Shown: one piece after another, positions 6,372 through 15,207 of the stretch | Position numbering within the stretch: position 1 is the stretch's first letter | Layout of the letters: each line of letters begins with the position of its first letter | The notes under the pieces: model-generated | Databases searched by the model: none | What the model saw: only the letters and a program-made list of their open reading frames with translations | What the model was told of the DNA's origin: nothing | Translations under genes and position numbers: made by a program | Source: Natronococcus occultus SP4 | GTDB taxonomy: Archaea > Halobacteriota > Halobacteria > Halobacteriales > Natrialbaceae | Direction: 5' to 3' | Length of the DNA: 64,000 nt | Assembly (NCBI RefSeq): GCF_000328685.1 | Contig: NC_019974.1 | Location: 1,479,001 to 1,543,000, forward strand

Positions 6372-7097
6372 CTACCGGGTGCTGAGCTCGTCTTTGTCCT
6401 TGATGAGCTCGGTTTCGGCCTCGCCGCTCGAGTGCTCGTTGACGGTATCGTAGAACTCGTTTTGGAGTCCGGCCGGGAACGTCAACACGCCGATCCAGGA
6501 GCCGTCGGCCTGCCACTCCTCGCGTTCCAGCTCGCCGAACTCGCGGATCTTTGCCTGGGCGCTGCCGGCGTGTTCCGCGGGGATCTGTACCGCCATCGTC
6601 ACCTCCTCGAACCGGATCGGAATCACCGGCCGCAGGGCGTCCAGGGCTTCGTCGACCTGCTGTTGGACCGGCTCCATCGGATCGACGGTAAAGCCCGCCT
6701 CCTCGAGGGCGTTGTCGATCCGCTCGGGCGGGTGCGGAGCGTTGTCCATCTGCGGGTTGACCGCGTTGCGCGTGATCGTGTCGATCAGCTGCTTGCGCTT
6801 TCGCTCCTGCATCTCGCGGCGCTGGTCGGCCGTGATCTGGATCTCCCCTTCTTTGATGACCTCGGGAATGATCTCGAGGGGATCGGTCGTCTCGAAGACC
6901 GTCTCGAGGTCGTCCTCGGCGGGACGATCACCGCGCGAGGCGTTCTCGAAGACGTCCTCGGCGGCGATGACGTCCTCGAGGTCGCCCTCGAAGTCACCGC
7001 GCTTGATCGCCAGTGCAGCGTCCGGATCGACAAGCACCTCGAAACGCGCCCCGTGTGATTCGAGCCGCGCCGTCACCGCCTCGTCGAGCGATATCAT
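6372..7097 (-). CDS. Ribosome assembly factor SBDS (Sdo1)
   Basis: The product has 241 residues matching the archaeal SBDS/Sdo1 family. An N-terminal FYSH domain (about 1-90; ARFEVLVDPDAALAIKRGD, AAEDVFENASRGD) is followed by a three-helix central domain (ITADQRREMQERKRKQLIDTITRNAVNPQ) and a C-terminal ferredoxin-like domain (IPIRFEEVTMAVQIPAEHAGSAQAKIREFG). SBDS promotes release of the anti-association factor aIF6 from 50S subunits. It lies 62 bases downstream of psmA on the same strand, the usual archaeal link between proteasome, RNase P and ribosome-biogenesis genes, and may be co-transcribed with it. Confidence 0.93.
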   Translation of the reverse strand: MISLDEAVTARLESHGARFEVLVDPDAALAIKRGDFEGDLEDVIAAEDVFENASRGDRPAEDDLETVFETTDPLEIIPEVIKEGEIQITADQRREMQERKRKQLIDTITRNAVNPQMDNAPHPPERIDNALEEAGFTVDPMEPVQQQVDEALDALRPVIPIRFEEVTMAVQIPAEHAGSAQAKIREFGELEREEWQADGSWIGVLTFPAGLQNEFYDTVNEHSSGEAETELIKDKDELSTR

Positions 7098-7159
7098 ACC
7101 CGAGCATACCTCCGGCCGGGTAAAAGAGCTTTTCCTGCCGGAGTTTCCTCGCGAACGCG

Positions 7160-7915
7160 TTACTCGTCGGCTTCCTCCTCGCCGTCGTCGAGCAGGTCGT
7201 TCTCCTCGAGGTGGTCCTCGATGCGGTCATAGTCGAACTGCTCGAAGGACTCGCTGTCGACGTCGATCGTCGCGAGCCCGACCTCGCTGGGCAGCAAGGA
7301 GCCGTCGTTGACCGACGCGAGCGCGTCGAGCGCGAGCGCGATACCGCCGTCGAGGTCGGCCTCATCGTCGTAGTTCTCCTCTAAGTACTCCTGGAGCTCA
7401 CCGCGGTCGGAGCCGACCGCGAGTGCCTTCCACTCGTAGGGCGTTCCGGAGGGATCGGTCTCGAACAGCCGCGGCTCGCCGTTGTCGATGCCGCCGACGA
7501 TCAACGCGACGCCGAACGGACGAGCACCGCCGACCTGAGTGTACTGCTGGATGTGATCGGTGACCTCCTTCGTGAGCGTCTCGACCCCGATCGGCTCGCC
7601 GTACCGTAGCTGGTTGACCTGGGCCTGACGGCGCGCGAAGTCGATCAGCTGGCGCGCGTCGGCGACGTGGCCGGCGCTCGCGATGCCGACGTGGTCGTCG
7701 GCCTTGTGGATTTTCTCGACGCTCGAGTCCTCCAGTAGCGGGGAAGGAACTCGCTTGTCGACGGCCAGCACGACGCCGTCGTTGGTCCGCACGCCGATGC
7801 TTGCTGTACCTCGCTTGACCGCCTCGCGAGCGTACTCGACCTGGTAGAGTCGGCCGTCTGGCGAGAAGATCGTGATGCCGCGGTCGTACGCCTGCTGTTG
7901 TTGTTGTCCCTGCAT
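7160..7915 (-). CDS. psmA: Proteasome alpha subunit
   Basis: The product has 251 residues. The N-terminal alpha-subunit signature YDRGITIFSPDGRLYQVEYAREAV is intact; it forms the gate and ring-assembly helix of the 20S core. Conserved segments GVVLAVDKR, GHVADARQLIDFAR and GGARPFGVALIVGGID follow, and the tail is acidic. I start at ATG 7915 (MQGQQQQQAYDRG), the family norm; an in-frame ATG at 7966 would add an unrelated N-terminus running into the upstream gene. rnp2 ends 4 bases upstream, so translation is probably coupled within the rnp3-methyltransferase-rnp2-psmA order. Confidence 0.95.
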   Translation of the reverse strand: MQGQQQQQAYDRGITIFSPDGRLYQVEYAREAVKRGTASIGVRTNDGVVLAVDKRVPSPLLEDSSVEKIHKADDHVGIASAGHVADARQLIDFARRQAQVNQLRYGEPIGVETLTKEVTDHIQQYTQVGGARPFGVALIVGGIDNGEPRLFETDPSGTPYEWKALAVGSDRGELQEYLEENYDDEADLDGGIALALDALASVNDGSLLPSEVGLATIDVDSESFEQFDYDRIEDHLEENDLLDDGEEEADE

Positions 7916-7919
7916 AGTA

Positions 7920-8405
7920 TCACGCGAAATCGCAATCGAGGTCTGTCGTGCCCACGAACGCGTCATCGAGTCGCACGTCTGCAGACCCGTCGCGCACGAC
8001 GGCGACTCGCTCTTCGTTCCCGAACACGACGTTTCTCTCCTTCGAATCTTGCCGGCGGCGTCCTAAATAGTTTTCTTCACCGGCACGGATCGTGCCACTG
8101 ATACCGCAGACCCGAATCCCGACCGTAGCACCGTCGATCTCGTCGATACAGGCGATCGCCGCTCTGGCGGATTCGGTCTCGCCTCGGCGAACTCGCACGA
8201 TTGCGGATCCGGTTCCATCGTCGAACTCGAACCTGACGACCGTCAGATCGGCCGCGGCGCTTCCCGGATCGCCCAGCAGGTTCTGGCCCGCGTACCAACA
8301 CTCCCGCTGGAACGCTCGCCGGTCGATCTCGGCGTCGGGCCAGCCCTCGAGCTCGAGGACGAGGTAGCGCCACCGGGGCTGGAGGTGTTTCGGGAGGTGT
8401 TTCAT
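7920..8405 (-). CDS. rnp2: Ribonuclease P protein component 2 (Pop5)
   Basis: The product is a 161-residue archaeal Pop5 homolog, recognised by the N-terminal MKHLPKHLQPRWRYLVLELEGWPDAEIDR and the RNP-like fold with TVVRFEFDDGTGSAIVRVRRGE. It pairs with Rpp30 (component 3) to activate the catalytic RNase P RNA in tRNA 5' processing. The start overlaps the methyltransferase stop by ATGA (8402-8405), and psmA begins 4 bases after its end, so it sits in a tight operon. Its partner rnp3 is at 10641-11348, now separated by the halocin island. Confidence 0.93.
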   Translation of the reverse strand: MKHLPKHLQPRWRYLVLELEGWPDAEIDRRAFQRECWYAGQNLLGDPGSAAADLTVVRFEFDDGTGSAIVRVRRGETESARAAIACIDEIDGATVGIRVCGISGTIRAGEENYLGRRRQDSKERNVVFGNEERVAVVRDGSADVRLDDAFVGTTDLDCDFA

Positions 8406-9088
8406 CCGTCCGTCTCGAGCTCGCCGTCGGTCGCGGGGCCGCGTTCGGCGACCAGGACGCCGACCTGGTCGTGGACCCGTTCGACGGCTGTCAGCGAGAA
8501 GCCTGCGCTCGTGAAGGCGTCGGCGAGCGTGCCGACGGTCGCGGGGTCGTCGACCTCCGGCGAGTAAAACGGCTCCTCGGGGTCGGGCTCGCCGAAGAAC
8601 ATCACGTCCCCGAGGACGAACCGATCGGGCTCGAGGGCCGCGATCACGTCGATCGCCTCGCGCTTTTCCTCGTCCGAGAGGTGGTGCATCGCGAAGTTCG
8701 AAGTTACCACGTCCACACGAGGGGACCGAGTGTGGGCTCGAGACGTCTCCGACGTCTCGGCGTCGACGGGCCCGTCGTACTCGGGCTCGCGGAAGGTTCC
8801 CCGGTCGAACTCGACGTTCTCGAGGCCGTCCTCCTGGGCTTTCGTTCTCGCCTCGTCCATCATTCCCTCGCTGATGTCCCGGCCGACCACGCGGTCGGCA
8901 TCCGGTGCCAGCGCGAGTGCGATGGCGCCCGTCCCGGTCCCCAGATCGAGGACGACGTCCTCGGCGTCGGGCGCGGCGTGTTCGATCACCAGGTTCGCAC
9001 AGGCGCGGTACTCGTCGGATTTCGACTCGTCGTACTCGGTCGCTTTCTCGTCGAAGCGGGCGGCGTGTTCCTCAGGACTCTTCTTCAT
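8402..9088 (-). CDS. Class I SAM-dependent methyltransferase
   Basis: The product has 228 residues with a Rossmann-like methyltransferase fold: motif I VLDLGTGTGAIALAL (46-60), an acidic residue after strand beta2 (VVGRDISEGMMDEAR), and NFAMHHLSDEEK after strand 4. The substrate is unknown; its constant place between rnp3 and rnp2 in haloarchaea suggests an RNA- or translation-linked role. I choose ATG 9088 (MKKSPEEHAARF). The next in-frame ATG upstream, 9115, lies in the remnant of the old rnp3 3' end, where the other frame is the coding one. It overlaps rnp2 by four bases. The island removed its former translational coupling to rnp3. Confidence 0.88.
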   Translation of the reverse strand: MKKSPEEHAARFDEKATEYDESKSDEYRACANLVIEHAAPDAEDVVLDLGTGTGAIALALAPDADRVVGRDISEGMMDEARTKAQEDGLENVEFDRGTFREPEYDGPVDAETSETSRAHTRSPRVDVVTSNFAMHHLSDEEKREAIDVIAALEPDRFVLGDVMFFGEPDPEEPFYSPEVDDPATVGTLADAFTSAGFSLTAVERVHDQVGVLVAERGPATDGELETDG

Positions 9089-9122
9089 ACCTGCTCCGTT
9101 CGATCCCCGGCTCAATGAACGA
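9072..9122 (-). pseudogene. Stranded former 3' end of rnp3
   Basis: Reading minus from 9122 gives SFIEPGIERSRYEEES and stop. The intact rnp3 ends SFIEPEVEWGQYEADDS and stop: the same motif with the same YE spacing. The fragment has no start and is cut from the rest of rnp3 by about 1.57 kb. It overlaps the methyltransferase ATG at 9088, as expected if rnp3 and the methyltransferase were once overlapping neighbours. I read it as the original rnp3 tail left behind when the island arrived. Confidence 0.75.
9107..9122. repeat. Left 16-bp direct repeat flanking the halocin island
   Basis: CCGGCTCAATGAACGA here matches CCGGTTCAATGAACGA at 10679-10694 with one mismatch, in the same orientation. The right copy is inside the coding end of rnp3; this copy is inside the stranded old rnp3 end. 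The two copies bound the low-GC island and mark the probable recombination or integration site. Confidence 0.75.
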
Positions 9123-9222
9123 TGCGAATGGGGTGCCGGATGGGGTTCCCCTTGTTCCCATCAATTACGTATCTTATACACTTCTATCGAATTTAAGTGC
9201 GAGTGTATGGGTGATGACTATT

Positions 9223-9230
9223 AGATATAA
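9223..9230 (+). promoter_or_regulatory. TATA box of the halocin-like gene
   Basis: AGATATAA is centred about 28 bases before the GTG at 9255, implying a leaderless mRNA. An in-frame stop at 9243-9245 blocks any earlier start, so promoter and frame agree on the GTG start. Confidence 0.55.
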
Positions 9231-9254
9231 GCAAAGACGCAATAGTTACAGGTT

Positions 9255-10049
9255 GTGGTAGACGAAACACCATCACGGCGAACAATCCTGAAAGGTGTCA
9301 CAGCAGGCAGCGTTCCAATTGCGATGGGGTCCGCCTCAGGCAATCCTGGCGCGAAGAACAATGGAAACGGCCCGAAGACGGATTTGGAGATACTAGACTC
9401 AGCAGCCAAATCCCACTCGGAGGCACATAAGGATGCACACGCTGTGTTAGATGATGAGACGGTAACTGAATTGAGCATCGCTATTGAGTTGGTAACGTCC
9501 GATCCGTCGGTGAATAATCGTAATCCCGCTATCCTTCACTTGCCGCTTGCTTCGGACGATGAAGAATACACTGTTGATAATGGTGGCGTCCTCATGGCCT
9601 TGGTCGTTGACCACGGAGACGATCGTGTCCCGATTCAGGCGATGGGGATCACGAGAGAAGAAGCCGAAGACGAAATTAGCACTCAATCATCCGACGGGAC
9701 AGAAGCGTCGGTCGAAATGAAGGTATTCGGCGAAAACGAAACGTCTGGATTAGGGCTCCTTGAAACCACGGCAGACACACCAGCGCGTGAGGATTCCGTT
9801 TCGACACAATCGATTCACGGTTCCGTCGGTTGTGAGATGTGTACTACGATCATTGCGACCGCCTGTGTAGGCTCTTCTCGTATCACCCAAACATCCTGTG
9901 CGAAGGCCGCAGTATCGGCTGGCGCATTCAATCCGTGGGCGGGCGGTGCTGCGGCGGCGTTTTGCCTCTACGTCGTTCAAAACGCTACGACGCTCACCTG
10001 CACTGCCGCTCCCGGGACGATCTGCGTCGGAGCAGGTATTTGTGATTAA
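9255..10049 (+). CDS. Halocin-C8-like antimicrobial peptide precursor
   Basis: The product is a 264-residue preproprotein. It has a Tat signal (SRRTILK, residues 7-13, then a short hydrophobic stretch), a hydrophilic propeptide (about 35-185) and a compact C-terminal domain of about 76 residues with eight cysteines at 193, 196, 204, 215, 237, 249, 257 and 263. The spacing C-x2-C-x7-C at the start and C-x5-C at the end matches halocin C8 as I recall it, and the overall order (Tat signal, immunity-like propeptide, Cys-rich C-terminus) is that of the HalC8 precursor. The mature peptide is probably released after export and kills other haloarchaea; by analogy the propeptide may confer immunity. 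The start is GTG. Base composition and position mark it as acquired. Confidence 0.72.
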   Translation: MVDETPSRRTILKGVTAGSVPIAMGSASGNPGAKNNGNGPKTDLEILDSAAKSHSEAHKDAHAVLDDETVTELSIAIELVTSDPSVNNRNPAILHLPLASDDEEYTVDNGGVLMALVVDHGDDRVPIQAMGITREEAEDEISTQSSDGTEASVEMKVFGENETSGLGLLETTADTPAREDSVSTQSIHGSVGCEMCTTIIATACVGSSRITQTSCAKAAVSAGAFNPWAGGAAAAFCLYVVQNATTLTCTAAPGTICVGAGICD

Positions 10050-10085
10050 CGATTTGATATAACAAAAATGCCATCTACGATAAGG

Positions 10086-10093
10086 ATTTATAT
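10086..10093 (+). promoter_or_regulatory. Possible TATA box before the membrane-protein gene
   Basis: ATTTATAT lies in the AT-rich 97-base gap after the halocin-like gene. It would place a transcription start near 10115, with a leader of about 30 bases before ATG 10147. Co-transcription with the halocin-like gene is the alternative. Confidence 0.3.
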
Positions 10094-10146
10094 GAAACTT
10101 CTACAGTCGAATAGTGCTATCAGAAAGAACGGGTTGGAAAACGTAT

Positions 10147-10629
10147 ATGAGCACGGACAATAACTCACTCGAGCGGTACCGACAGTGGATTATCGCCGGA
10201 ACAGCCGCCCTCAAAATTGGACTCGTTGTGTACGGCGTTTGGGTGACGCTTGCGGTTTACCAGGCTGGACTCGAATGATTGGCCCTCAGTTTCGGCATCG
10301 GTGGCGGGCTCTATCTCCTCGTCGAGGCGGTAGCCGACTGGCGGAAGGGACGACGGCCATGGATGCCGACTCGGCGAGTCATCGCAACGGAATTTGACAA
10401 ATCACCATCGATTCGGCGTGGTAGTATCATCGGTGTGGTTGCCGCGAAACTGACAGTCATCGGACTCTGGGCATTCGTGACCTATACGGTCTATCAGGCA
10501 GGATTAGAGGGGATTGCCGCGAGTTTCGTTTTCCTCGGAGCCACCTACGTAGTCGCCAGACTCGCACTCGATTTGCGAGCGGGCCGTCCGCCGTGGCTCC
10601 CGATGGATCGCGTGCCGCTATTCGAGTAA
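10147..10629 (+). pseudogene. Duplicated four-helix membrane protein interrupted by TGA; possible halocin immunity
   Basis: From ATG 10147 the frame encodes two homologous halves. Half 1 has LKIGLVVYGVWVTLAVYQAGLE, stop at 10276-10278, then LALSFGIGGG and GRRPWMPTRRV. Half 2 has AKLTVIGLWAFVTYTVYQAGLEG, IAASFVFLGA and GRPPWLPMDRV. The halves align without gaps around the stop, which falls where half 2 has Gly, so a single GGA-to-TGA change explains it. A restart at TTG 10279 directly after the stop could still make the downstream part. Each half would supply two membrane helices. Its place just downstream of the halocin-like gene inside the island suggests immunity or export, but no family is recognised. 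It is either a nonsense-mutated gene or two separately translated pieces. Confidence 0.6.
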
Positions 10630-10640
10630 TCTCAGAACTG

Positions 10641-11348
10641 TCAGCTATCGTCGGCCTCGTACTGTCCCCATTCAACCTCCGGTTCAATGAACGACTCGGA
10701 GTCGATGCGACGATTGCGCTCGGCGAGTCGGCCCCACTCGGCGAGTCCGTCCTCGATAAAGTCACTCGAGAGGCCGATCTCCTCGCCTACCGCCTGCAGT
10801 TCGCGGGGTGAGCGAAGCTCGAGGTGCGAGTACGGGTCGGCGCTGACGACGTAGGGCGCGTCGTAGTAGTCGACGATCTCGGAGAGCTTCCGCAGCGACT
10901 GGAGGGTTCGAACCCGCCGCCCGCCGCTCTCCCGGAGCGCGCCCGAGAGGTCGAACTCGATTCGGACGCCGTTCTCGACGGCGGCTTTCGCCAGTACGTG
11001 GTTGACGTCGCCGTCGCCGGCCATCGGCCCCGCCAGTACGTCGACCTTCGCTTGTTCGACCGCAAACCGGTTCAGGGCGTTCGTCCCGCCTTCGAGGGCG
11101 ATGAGGGTCCGTGAGGTGCGGTAGTTACCGACCGAGCCGCTGGCCTGTTGGGGGTCTGCGGCCCGGATCTCGACGCCGTCGACGACGTCGATCCCGTACT
11201 CGTTGGCGATCGTGTCGGCGTCGTAGTCGGCTCGAGTTCCGGAGTGGTTGCGCACGACCATCCCCTCGTACCCGTAGTCGGCCGCCCGTTTCGCGAGCCT
11301 GGCGACCGTGCTCTGTCCCTCGGGGTGGACGCGGACGGCCTCGTACAT
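10641..11348 (-). CDS. rnp3: Ribonuclease P protein component 3 (Rpp30)
   Basis: The product is a 235-residue Rpp30 homolog with a PHP-like TIM-barrel fold. Recognisable segments are MYEAVRVHPEG, YEGMVVRNHSG, GVEIRAADPQQASGSVGNYR, LAGPMAGDGDVNHVLAKAAVENGVRIEFDLS and PYVVSADPYSHLELRSPREL. With Pop5 it forms the activating heterodimer of archaeal RNase P. The last 12 residues (EVEWGQYEADDS) lie past the 16-bp repeat and so derive from the island; the original tail survives at 9072-9122. The substituted tail is acidic and similar in length, so function is probably kept. It was formerly overlapped by the methyltransferase gene and now ends 12 bases after the convergent membrane-protein gene. Confidence 0.93.
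   Translation of the reverse strand: MYEAVRVHPEGQSTVARLAKRAADYGYEGMVVRNHSGTRADYDADTIANEYGIDVVDGVEIRAADPQQASGSVGNYRTSRTLIALEGGTNALNRFAVEQAKVDVLAGPMAGDGDVNHVLAKAAVENGVRIEFDLSGALRESGGRRVRTLQSLRKLSEIVDYYDAPYVVSADPYSHLELRSPRELQAVGEEIGLSSDFIEDGLAEWGRLAERNRRIDSESFIEPEVEWGQYEADDS
10679..10694. repeat. Right 16-bp direct repeat flanking the halocin island
   Basis: This is the partner of 9107-9122 (15 of 16 bases identical). It lies in the coding sequence of rnp3 and specifies its SFIEP motif; everything of rnp3 downstream of it comes from the island. Confidence 0.75.
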
Positions 11349-11432
11349 ACTCGAGGACTCTCGGAGCTTCGACTTGGAGTTTGCGTCACGCGCTCGCCCG
11401 ACTCTCGCTCGAGCAACGGATTACAGCCGGGA

Positions 11433-11909
11433 GCGCGCTCGCCGACCTTCGGCGAGCGCGCGACTCAACGAAAGAGCAAGCTCTTTCGAGCAGCGAGGGA
11501 TCGTCGATCCCTCGAGTAGTCGGCGCGAAGTCGTTCGAAACGGATTTGCCGTTTCATGATGCCAAAAATCTTCGATTTTTGAGCACCCCGACGACCTCGC
11601 GAACGCGCAGCGTTCGCTCAACGGGGAAGGGCAGGCAGACTCACGGTACTCACCGCGAGCGAACCCGACGGGTGAGCGAGCGGGCCGACGACCGATGTGA
11701 GTGAGGACTATCGGAACGAACGAACGGAGGGAGGAGTGCTTTTGATCGAAATTTTATCGAGGGACATCGCGGTCGCGAACCGCCGCGACCGCGATAGACC
11801 GTGGTTCGAAAGACGCCAAAGGCGTCTTTCGTCATCATGCGAGACCACAGGTCTCGCGGACCTCGCGGAGCTTCGCTCCGCTCAGTCACGAGAGAGCGAA
11901 GCTCTCTCG
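11433..11909. repeat. Array of eleven short perfect hairpins, no gene
   Basis: The 581-base gap between rnp3 and tbsP has no convincing ORF but is packed with unrelated perfect inverted repeats. Arms are: 11433-11444/11450-11461; 11469-11477/11480-11488; 11494-11502/11506-11514; 11537-11543/11549-11555; 11564-11570/11574-11580; 11599-11606/11610-11617; 11766-11777/11784-11795; 11807-11817/11821-11831; 11839-11846/11850-11857; 11865-11871/11875-11881; 11889-11897/11901-11909. Stems are 7-12 bp, and loops are 2-6 bases, mostly 3. The arms differ in sequence from hairpin to hairpin, so this is not one repeat family. A structured RNA, a terminator region, or the product of a palindrome-generating replication process are all possible. 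Confidence 0.75.
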
Positions 11910-11929
11910 AACGACAGAATAAAATTTCG

Positions 11930-12748
11930 TTAGTTGAGAATCGACTGGGCGACCGTCGCGAGCTGGCCGTTGTCGGCCTCGGTGAGCCGCTCGTCGCCGA
12001 TCTTCAGGCGCAGGCGCGGGCGGCCGACGTCGATGGGAACCTTCTCGGTGTCGATCAGGCCCATGTCCTCGAGTTTGGTCTTCGTGCGGCTGAACGTCGC
12101 CTTGCTGGCGATGCCGACGTCCTCGCCCCATTTGCTGATGTCGTACAGCAGCGCCTCGTTTTTGGCGGCGACGAGCAGCGAGATCGTCACCTCGTCGAGA
12201 CCGTCGCCGTCGCCGCGGGCGGTCTCCAGCGAGTCGAGGATCGCGCTGAAGTCCTCCTGGGCGCCGGGGCTAATCTCCTCGGAGAGCGTGTCTTGAACGT
12301 CCGAGATCGGTGGCGTCCGGAGGTTGAACTCGGAAGCGTCCTCCCAGCGGGTCGCGTACGCGTCGTGGGTGTCCTCGACGAAGCTCTTGTCGTCGGTGAC
12401 CAGTCCGCCGACGCGGTCGTTCGCGTGGACGATGGCGACGACGCTGTCTTCCGTTACGAGCAGCGAGTTCTCGGGGGCCTCCTCGAGTGAGCGCAGCGAG
12501 AGCGAGCCCTGGCTAACGAGGTCGGCGGCGTTCGACGCGACGATGAAATCGTCCATGACGTCTTTGAGCGTCCGTTCGTCGGCGAGCATGTGAACCGAGG
12601 GGAGTTCGCCGTCGAAATTCGTCGCGACGGAGACGAACTCCTCGATGGCGTCTCGTGACGGGTTTACCATGTAGACGTCACCGCTCGCGTCTCCGAGGAT
12701 CGATTCGAGGATATCGTCAATCTGGTGATTGAGTAAATTCGAGGTCAT
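11930..12748 (-). CDS. tbsP: TbsP/DUF5821-like transcriptional regulator
   Basis: The product has 272 residues. The N-terminal half (VYMVNPSRDAIEEFVSVATNFDGELPSVHMLADE) looks like a sensor or effector domain. The C-terminal part carries a winged-helix DNA-binding domain (LLYDISKWGEDVGIASKATFSRTKTKLEDMGLIDTEKVPIDVGRPRLRLKIG). This matches the haloarchaeal TbsP family, reported to help regulate gluconeogenic and sugar-related promoters in Haloferax; I recall the family and could not verify the ortholog. A TATA-like element (12777-12785) lies about 30 bases before the ATG, suggesting a leaderless mRNA. It is preceded by AT-rich DNA and followed by the hairpin array. Confidence 0.7.
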   Translation of the reverse strand: MTSNLLNHQIDDILESILGDASGDVYMVNPSRDAIEEFVSVATNFDGELPSVHMLADERTLKDVMDDFIVASNAADLVSQGSLSLRSLEEAPENSLLVTEDSVVAIVHANDRVGGLVTDDKSFVEDTHDAYATRWEDASEFNLRTPPISDVQDTLSEEISPGAQEDFSAILDSLETARGDGDGLDEVTISLLVAAKNEALLYDISKWGEDVGIASKATFSRTKTKLEDMGLIDTEKVPIDVGRPRLRLKIGDERLTEADNGQLATVAQSILN

Positions 12749-12995
12749 GCCAATACAGAAGTAAACGAGGTACAGTTACTTAATTTTGGTGGCCGTTTCC
12801 CCGCCAGAACCGCCGTGTTCTATCCGTACGCCGCGATACGAACCCGGGTCACCGTCGCGAGCGCAGGTCGTGCCAGGAAGCCGTATTTGTTTCTATGATC
12901 TGTCTTATCAGATTATTAGTATATACCGTTTTGTCTCTACTTATGTTTGAAATTACGACAAAACTTATGTTCGGGTTCTGGCATTGTAGGGTTGC
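12749..12995. other. AT-rich intergenic region with tbsP promoter
   Basis: About 250 bases separate tbsP from the small ORF and the CHAT gene. The tbsP TATA box is at about 12777-12785. Bases 12890-12970 are strikingly AT-rich for this genome, with several runs of T and A; they may be the promoter of the small ORF at 12996 or a remnant of lost DNA. No other gene is visible. Confidence 0.45.
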
Positions 12996-13115
12996 ATGGG
13001 TGCAATTGGTGACCTGATCGACTCGGTGCAGGTGTGTGTGAAACAGCAACTTCGAAACGACAGACGCGATCGCTCGCTCCAAGCGAGCGGGGTTAGTACG
13101 TACAGCGGACCCTAA
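12996..13115 (+). CDS. Possible 39-residue small protein
   Basis: The frame ATG 12996 to TAA 13113-13115 encodes MGAIGDLIDSVQVCVKQQLR followed by a short Arg/Ser-rich tail. A TATA-like AACTTATG sits about 30 bases upstream (12962-12969), the leaderless spacing seen elsewhere in the window. The first 20 residues look like an amphipathic helix start of a real protein, while the tail (including a palindromic segment near 13068-13087) does not, so it may be a truncated gene. It converges on the CHAT gene, ending 4 bases from its stop. No family is recognised. Confidence 0.3.
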   Translation: MGAIGDLIDSVQVCVKQQLRNDRRDRSLQASGVSTYSGP

Positions 13116-13119
13116 CCGC

Positions 13120-15207
13120 TCAAACGAACTGCGACCACAGTTCTCCGGACCAGTAGATATCGCCGTCGTAGATCACCGGCGACTCCGTATCCTGTAGCAT
13201 CGACACTAGCTCGGACCGGTCTAGCGTGAAACTGGACTCGTTTCCACAGAGGTACGCGTACTCGCTGTCGGTTGTGTGGGGAACGTAGTACGATCCCGTT
13301 GCGTGTGTCGAGTAGCAGTCGAAGGTCGCCAGATATCGGTCGTCCTCGAGTTCCTCGAGGGAGATCGTCGTTGGGAGACGACTCTCGCTTTGGGTAAGCG
13401 AGTGGGTGCCGTCGCCGACGACGGCGTAATCTTTCCCCATCATGATCCGACGGCGAGCGAGTCGGAGCGCTCGCTCGATGCTGAACCCGTGGACGAGCAG
13501 CTTGGCGAACGTCGAACCGACCTTGATAGCGTGGTCGTTTAGCACCTTCCGGAACGTCACCGCGCCCGCGACGCTGCCTTTCTCGATTAGTTCCATCCCC
13601 TCGTAGTAGGAGCCACAGGCGTTGAGGAAGAACGTCTGTGCGGAACACTGATCGAGACTCGAGGCCGAGAGCGTTCCGTCCGTACAGCGAAGGCCGTCGG
13701 TCTCGCAGTGACCGATGTAGTGAACGAAGTCGTAATCGCTCTCGAAGACGGTAGCGAGCTCGGCTCGTGTCAGCCCTTCCTCGACGGAAACGTCCATCCT
13801 GACCTCTTTCGAGCGTCGCCGGTAGATCTCGGCGACGTCGTCGTGTTCGCCGGCCATCTCGGGGTCGTTCAGAACGACACAGATCGAGGTCGATTCGCTC
13901 GAACGCTCGAGGTACTCCAGCCGGTTGTGGTAGGCCGCAGCCGTCGATTTGAACACGTCGATCGGGACGCCATCGGCGAGCCAGCCGTGAACTCGTGCGT
14001 CCCGCAGGTCTGGTTTCACGATGTCGACCGACGCAACCTGCCCGGAGTGAGCTCCACCCGGCGAGCCGTTTCCGCCGCGGTAGAAGTCGGTCAGCGAGCG
14101 CTCGATCAGTTCCTCTCCCTCGAGCTCGGAGGTGCGAGGAGTATAGAGGAGGCTCATCCGATCGAGCAAAAACGGGAGCGTCTCGACGGTCTCGTACTCG
14201 GGAGAGATGTACGTCGCGAGATGCCACTCCGGCAATCGGTGTTCGACCGCCTCGTAGGGTATCTCGAGGTACGTGGCGAGCCGCTCGGCCGGCGTCGCCT
14301 CATAGAGCCGTTCGGCGTCGAGCTCCAGTACGTCGAGCAGACTCGATTCGGCGAGCTGCGTTCCGTACGGCCCGACGTTGCGGACGAGACAGTCCAGAAA
14401 GAACGTCTTTCGGAGGAGCCGCTCCACGTCACGCTCGAGACCGGGCATCGGTGAGAGCTCCGTCTCGATGCTCCGGTCGGGCACGCGGAGCCGAGGACGC
14501 GTTCCGGCGCCGTCGGCACAGTCCGTCGTTCGCACCGTCGCCTGAAGGTAGTACGCAAGCGAGGCGGTGGCGTACAGCGCCTTGTAGTCGGGAGGGACGA
14601 CGATCTCGATTCCGCTTTTCGGGCGTTCGGAACGGATCGTGTCGGGTATCTCGAGTTCGTCGCCGAACTCGATCAGCGGCGGGTGGCCACGGAGCGTCGG
14701 GTAGGTGCGGTCGGGGCTGGTGGTCTTGTACGACGAGGTTAGATGGGAGATCGCCGTCGCCACATCGGTCGGCGAGTCGGGGACGGTAATCGTCCCCGCG
14801 GGACGTTCGTGACGGCTCCGCAGTCCGAGGACGACCCGAACCGGCTTCGGGAACGAGACGACGATCGACTCGAAGTCGTCGGTCTTGCGAACCGTCGCGC
14901 GGCCGGAGAACCGGAGATAGCTTTTGATCTCGGTGTCGACGTCGATCACGTACTCGTCGGCGGGCAAGGAGAGCGGTTGCCCCCCGGGATCGAGCTCGTA
15001 CCGGGCGTTCGACCCGAGCGCGAACGCGTAGACGACCGCGTTGGGGAACCGTAGCTCGTCGGTTGTGACAGTGATCGTCTCGTCGACCGGACGCGGGAGC
15101 TCGCGTCCGGTGTCGACGACCGAGAGATCGTCGCCCACGACGGTGAGTTCGGCGTTATCCGTGTCCATGACGTGGAGCGTTTCCCCGGCCGTCGCCCACT
15201 CTATCAT
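13120..15207 (-). CDS. CHAT-domain (caspase-like) protein
   Basis: The product has 695 residues with no signal peptide or membrane helix. The C-terminal part is a CHAT/caspase-like peptidase domain: the catalytic His is in HYIGHCE (His500) and the nucleophile in FFLNACGSYYEG (Cys531), preceded by strand-like SICVVLNDPEM. The N-terminal 400 residues have a beta-rich start (about 1-130, VVYAFALGSNARYELDPGG) and an alpha/beta middle with no repeats I recognise. CHAT proteases act in bacterial gasdermin and type III-E CRISPR defence and in separase-like cleavage. Here there is no gasdermin, CRISPR or TPR neighbour. A TATA-like element at 15231-15240 fits the ATG at 15207. The substrate is unknown. 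Confidence 0.82.
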   Translation of the reverse strand: MIEWATAGETLHVMDTDNAELTVVGDDLSVVDTGRELPRPVDETITVTTDELRFPNAVVYAFALGSNARYELDPGGQPLSLPADEYVIDVDTEIKSYLRFSGRATVRKTDDFESIVVSFPKPVRVVLGLRSRHERPAGTITVPDSPTDVATAISHLTSSYKTTSPDRTYPTLRGHPPLIEFGDELEIPDTIRSERPKSGIEIVVPPDYKALYATASLAYYLQATVRTTDCADGAGTRPRLRVPDRSIETELSPMPGLERDVERLLRKTFFLDCLVRNVGPYGTQLAESSLLDVLELDAERLYEATPAERLATYLEIPYEAVEHRLPEWHLATYISPEYETVETLPFLLDRMSLLYTPRTSELEGEELIERSLTDFYRGGNGSPGGAHSGQVASVDIVKPDLRDARVHGWLADGVPIDVFKSTAAAYHNRLEYLERSSESTSICVVLNDPEMAGEHDDVAEIYRRRSKEVRMDVSVEEGLTRAELATVFESDYDFVHYIGHCETDGLRCTDGTLSASSLDQCSAQTFFLNACGSYYEGMELIEKGSVAGAVTFRKVLNDHAIKVGSTFAKLLVHGFSIERALRLARRRIMMGKDYAVVGDGTHSLTQSESRLPTTISLEELEDDRYLATFDCYSTHATGSYYVPHTTDSEYAYLCGNESSFTLDRSELVSMLQDTESPVIYDGDIYWSGELWSQFV

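Follow-up and report, generated by a model that had tools for sequence, protein, structure and literature searches.

Halocin C8-type cassette at the 3' end of rnp3 in Natronococcus occultus SP4: a probable case of target-gene restoration by an archaeal insert

The genome of the haloarchaeon Natronococcus occultus SP4 carries, within the 64,000-nucleotide stretch analysed here (contig NC_019974.1, positions 1,479,001 to 1,543,000; "the window" in what follows), an insert of ~1.57 kb and low GC content between rnp3, which encodes component 3 of RNase P, and the methyltransferase gene, two genes that overlap at their end and start, respectively, in most relatives. The insert holds a halocin C8-type cassette and occupies a site that is empty in the relatives; rnp3 is native up to a short core encoding SFIEP and continues beyond it into a new tail, and its old tail is stranded on the far side of the insert. 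We consider it fairly probable that a cassette with its own rnp3 tail recombined at this core and restored the 3' end of the gene, in which case the tail would have arrived together with the cassette. The locus offers a near base-level record of the entry of an antimicrobial cassette into a conserved cluster of RNase P subunit and proteasome genes, with two overlapping genes left unbroken.

Two minus-strand 16-mers, TCGTTCATTGAGCCGG (9107-9122) and TCGTTCATTGAACCGG (10679-10694), match at 15 of 16 positions at a spacing of 1572 nt, and they are the only sites in the window within two mismatches of the 16-mer. They confirm the direct repeat that an earlier sequence-only reading of this DNA had placed at the flanks of the island. 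Its descriptions of the two gene ends proved equally sound: the frame through the left copy is a stranded tail (SFIEPGIERSRYEEES-stop, 9122-9072) that overlaps the methyltransferase start (ATG at 9088), and the right copy belongs to the new end of rnp3, SFIEPEVEWGQYEADDS-stop. Beyond the left copy the frame reads GIERSRYEEES-stop, and beyond the right copy EVEWGQYEADDS-stop. The proposed homology of the two tails is borne out as well, inasmuch as the 24 nt past the right copy agree with the consensus tail of the family at 16 of 24 positions, a level equalled by 6 of the 127,952 24-mers of the window (the tail copies themselves counted), and match the tail of the relative G055 at 19 of 24, a level attained by 2 of the 127,952. 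Judged in this way, the replacement tail is a genuine, homologous rnp3 tail. Homology of the two copies beyond the tail, noticed by eye (upstream TCGCATCG, downstream AGTYCTGAG), was rejected: an extended gapped alignment scored 49.5, below the null mean (77), which gives no ground for claiming a longer duplication. Also rejected was the insertion of a transposon with target-site duplication: the three insert frames scanned gave no transposase match, and the two repeat copies differ.

The ancestral junction can be read from the relatives. A search of 125 genomes of the family, that of SP4 included, located rnp3 in 123 (the two without a match are incomplete), and the rnp3 end was read in 128 genomes besides that of SP4, comprising the 122 others of the family and six from other families. 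The methyltransferase start overlaps the rnp3 end in 122 of these 128 genomes, with identical 17-nt geometry in 113, and two show gaps of 44-45 nt between the genes. No insert is present at the rnp3 junction of any of the 128. The insert-free genomes include all eight congeners, each of which has a PG-V-x-RG-x-YEEE tail overlapping the methyltransferase gene, as the sequence-only reading had expected of island-free relatives. The stranded tail, which is identical to those of several congeners at 34 of 36 nt, is therefore the ancestral rnp3 end. Another 40 genomes of other families, chosen from the matches to a search with the rnp3 tail, comprise 36 with the overlap, one with a 5-nt gap and three that could not be resolved; none of the 37 with a readable next gene has an insert at the rnp3 site. 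The four remaining genomes of the 128 (L172, L173, L113 and L197) give no methyltransferase match, and in them rnp2 comes next after rnp3, at a distance of -4 to 105 nt, an apparent loss or displacement of the methyltransferase gene. The insertion probably postdates the split from the congeners; the sequence-only reading, which held the event to be dated by the structure of the site, can be followed no further than this.

Along the body of rnp3, DNA identity to the congeners ranges from 0.69 to 0.98 in windows of 15 codons. Codons 211-225 still reach 0.80-0.89, whereas the values from codon 226 on are 0.45-0.61, an abrupt drop that therefore places the switch at the SFIEP core. By this comparison rnp3 reads as native up to SFIEP, with an abrupt change beyond it. 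The exchange point lies somewhere in the ~15-nt core and can be located no more finely, so that the claim of ends defined to the base was too strong. The core itself is a poor yardstick for the switch because its DNA is conserved throughout the family: of 123 tails, 116 use ATT for isoleucine, a codon that accounts for 9% of the isoleucines in the body of rnp3 (29 genomes).

Some further observations on the overlap might be recorded here. DNA conservation in the region shared by rnp3 and the methyltransferase gene (9072-9122; relatives L010-L030 and L098-L204) far exceeds that of the protein; the codons GAA and TAT are favored there in the same manner as ATT, and in other families 33 of 38 cases have ATT or ATA for isoleucine. 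An RNA hairpin behind this synonymous conservation was considered and found to be unsupported (consensus energy -1.6, against a column-shuffle mean of -0.56 and minimum of -3.6, for 111 distinct sequences), and an Rfam scan of positions 7000-13000 gave no match. The very conserved DNA at the end of rnp3 is a possible target for insertion.

According to the scheme that we favor, the incoming DNA would have been short, consisting of a halocin C8-type cassette together with the final ~17 codons of rnp3 in a diverged version, and would have recombined with the resident gene inside the SFIEP core. The arriving tail would have completed the rnp3 frame, and the native tail would have been displaced by 1572 nt while still covering the methyltransferase start, such that the insert came to lie between rnp3 and methyltransferase-rnp2-psmA with neither overlapping gene broken. 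The joining might have been carried out by short-homology recombination or by a site-specific recombinase that acted in trans or has since been lost; microhomology end joining is reported for Haloferax (PMC7521656). A restored target, a displaced end and a short repeat together make up the anatomy left by integration at a gene's 3' end, and the sequence-only reading of the locus is to that extent largely right. Should the tail be foreign, the locus would show that a core RNase P subunit can have its C-terminus exchanged.

The main competitor to import of the tail is that entry of the cassette duplicated the resident overlap, through slippage or repair, and that the rnp3 copy so freed later diverged, the duplicate being retained since rnp3 and the methyltransferase gene overlap by 17 nt and both are needed. 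We regard this as rather unlikely. The conservation of the overlap in 122 of 128 genomes speaks for it, since only insertions that duplicate the overlap would then leave both genes whole, and so does the by-eye count of differences from the G055 tail, six over 36 nt and all of them transitions. The extent of the divergence speaks against it. At a position where glycine stands in 125 of 126 tails the replacement tail carries glutamate, the sole glutamate being that of the window itself, and it has tryptophan where 122 of the 126 tails have arginine; compared with the consensus tail of the relatives it shows 12-14 changes in 48 sites and a 3-nt insertion in addition. In rnp3, methyltransferase, rnp2 and psmA the four-fold sites give a corrected divergence of 0.295-0.342 from the five nearest congeners, from which an unconstrained resident copy would be expected to accumulate 7.1-8.2 changes in 48 sites on this branch and 5.3-6.1 in the last 36. 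In those last 36 nt 11-13 changes are seen (Poisson P 0.003-0.05), although over all 48 sites P is only 0.014-0.12, and the test is small, uses four-fold sites that might themselves be constrained and is sensitive to the ancestral tail chosen. Moreover, L113 and L172, where the neighboring position gives no methyltransferase match, retain a PGVERGR tail; losing the overlap is thus not in itself enough to free the tail. The sequences thus weakly favor import over duplication and drift; the contention that the island brought its own rnp3 tail stands to that extent, the P values obtained against its rival ranging from 0.003 to 0.12 with the assumptions made.

Several results, the 48-site comparison among them, weigh against the import of a tail with the cassette, and the lack of an outside source for the EVEW tail in the searches made favors a duplicated resident copy. 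The donor predicted by the sequence-only reading, with an EVEW tail beside the cassette, has not come to light so far: among 391 genomes of the class (290 with a match) the best other tail scored 26.2 bits against 42.9 for the tail itself, and the related cassettes that were read sit elsewhere, with neither rnp3 nor the core in the stretches read around the halocins and partner genes of other genomes. In genome_contigs, 45 stretches, all bacterial by record title, fitted a codon pattern for SFIEPE[VIM]E; since the pattern demands exact letters and TCN for serine, variants could escape it, and the genome of the window is possibly excluded from that collection. Neither cassette nor tail was found in the plasmid, phage and viral collections: a 24-nt pattern of the tail had no matches in viral_contigs, the tail search gave none in plasmids and just two in phages at E = 9, halocin and insert DNA gave none in plasmids, and the halocin gave none in phages. 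Halocin patterns did have matches in genome_contigs and viral_contigs, with no relative among them. Four other cassettes have no direct repeat of comparable kind at their flanks. Finally, there is no integrase among the open reading frames of the insert, the nearest PF00589 match lying ~159 kb away among 13 places over cutoff in the genome.

A variant of import, which we think very unlikely, would have the whole rnp3-cassette-methyltransferase junction built in another lineage and brought in by recombination in the flanks. Cassettes of the halocin kind are indeed scattered across families (14 other genomes of the 391), but both flanks look native, as the identity of codons 211-225, the near-identical stranded tail and a methyltransferase with 78-85% identity to congeners indicate, and the junction occurs in no other genome read. 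An artefact of assembly or sequencing at the junction is barely credible: the in-frame TGA in the partner gene might be cited in its favor, but the insert is single-copy in the genome and lies within a contig of 4.0 Mb, the assembly has 3 contigs and is 99.95% complete, and the new tail is an in-frame, homologous rnp3 tail. We retain the recombination of a tail-bearing cassette at the core as the preferred explanation.

The cargo consists of a halocin precursor and a partner gene. The TIGR04449 (halocin C8-like) match spans the C-terminal 71 residues of the 264-aa precursor and exceeds the curated cutoff; there is no Pfam match, and the N-terminal SRRTILK is a motif which we take to be twin-arginine-like. 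The precursor shares this C-terminal domain with known halocin C8-like precursors, the likeness being at the domain level, and the cassette differs from them in that its partner gene is interrupted. The TGA at 10276-10278 represents decay or a sequencing error. Matches to the halocin protein occur in 15 of the 391 class genomes, SP4 included, and relatives of the partner gene with open frames were found in G079, G104, G253, G258 and G362. In four of these, G079, G104, G253 and G362, the partner gene is directly preceded by a C8-like stretch, and halocin and partner therefore form a recurring pair; no convincing halocin was found in G258. From this arrangement the partner protein may have an immunity or accessory role. 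The partner gene is absent from all eight congeners, and the halocin is lacking in at least six of them. In G079 (L090 2143-4545) a tRNA-Thr gene, a fragment resembling the C-terminus of a phage integrase (19.1 bits, under the cutoff of 27.1), a halocin and a partner gene stand in a row, an arrangement suggesting that integrase elements can carry such cassettes. G362 (L083 5689-7104 and 14878-15772) has two C8-like halocin regions, flanked by proC-like and proB/proA-like genes and separated by weak transposase-like matches; the nearer region is divided between two frames.

On the minus strand the gene order is that of a TbsP regulator, rnp3, the insert, methyltransferase, rnp2 and psmA (Table 1). 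The GC content is 0.530 for the insert, compared with 0.667 for rnp3 and 0.675 for the methyltransferase gene, and the insert DNA occurs once in the genome. A second low-GC stretch (about 0.52) lies at 12500-13249, directly upstream of tbsP.

Table 1. Features of the rnp3 locus, in window coordinates
Feature	Position	Strand	Remarks
TbsP regulator gene	12748-11930	minus	first in the minus-strand order
rnp3, RNase P component 3 (Rpp30), 235 aa, with new tail	10641..11348	-	PF01876, 134 bits
Right core copy TCGTTCATTGAACCGG, SFIEP codons	10679..10694	-	16-mer repeat comparison
Replacement rnp3 tail EVEWGQYEADDS-stop	10641..10679	-	departs at residues (nearly) invariant in 125 relatives' tails
Insert, GC 0.53, repeat unit 1572 nt start to start	9123..10640		no insert at this junction in the 128 other genomes
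Partner membrane-protein gene, two similar halves	10147..10629	+	in-frame TGA 10276-10278; open-frame relatives elsewhere
Halocin C8-type precursor, 264 aa, Cys-rich C-terminal domain	9255..10049	+	TIGR04449, 39.4 bits, cutoff 24, residues 193-263
Possible 29-aa leader frame, begins in insert, ends in stranded tail	9072..9161	-	ATG 9161 in frame (putative)
Stranded native rnp3 tail SFIEPGIERSRYEEES-stop	9072..9122	-	overlaps methyltransferase start; core copy 9107-9122
Methyltransferase gene, next in rnp3 cluster	8402..9088	-	PF13649; 78-85% identity to congeners
rnp2 (Pop5/Rpp14)	7920..8405	-	PF01900, 72.6 bits
psmA, proteasome alpha subunit	7160..7903	-	PF00227, 193 bits; TIGR03633

The cassette reads in the direction opposite to rnp3 and methyltransferase-rnp2-psmA and separates them, and the downstream genes therefore probably need another promoter. 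It is conceivable, though unlikely in our estimation, that the insert both completes rnp3 and gives the stranded tail a new start (ATG 9161, with the 29-aa leader) and a promoter, that the old 17-nt overlap still feeds translation of methyltransferase-rnp2-psmA, and that the cassette is an integrase-less mobile unit adapted to the conserved overlap. Insertion between overlapping genes of an essential cluster would then be survivable. A frame as short as the leader may be due to chance, and a scan of the insert for promoters and terminators of the bacterial type gave values near those of shuffled sequences under a model that is uninformative for archaea.

Among known systems, prophages that insert in icd of E. 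coli supply an alternative, homologous 3' end to the target gene, and these are full prophages with an integrase. We found no published account of a halocin insertion at rnp3 in the literature searched, which is no proof that none exists. Replacement of the 3' end of a target gene by an integrated element is on record in archaea, and of the 68 thaumarchaeal elements whose sites are defined, 14 lie in protein-coding genes (PMC6563490). NitEve-E2 of Nitrososphaera evergladensis is likewise inserted at the 3' end of a protein gene by way of a short repeat (13 bp, compared with 15/16 here), the element supplies the gene end and stop, as it probably does here too, and in both cases the site is empty in the relatives checked; unlike NitEve-E2, the insert described here is a mere 1.57-kb cassette without an integrase, the new and old tails are homologous where those of NitEve-E2 are unrelated, and the old tail still overlaps the next gene (PMC6563490). 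Genomic islands in tRNA and tmRNA genes, to which the Islander principle applies, are also marked at their ends by a restored target and a displaced fragment, whereas the target here is protein-coding and there is no integrase (PMC4383910). The insert at rnp3 is probably a variant of the known type of insertion that restores the 3' end of its target gene.

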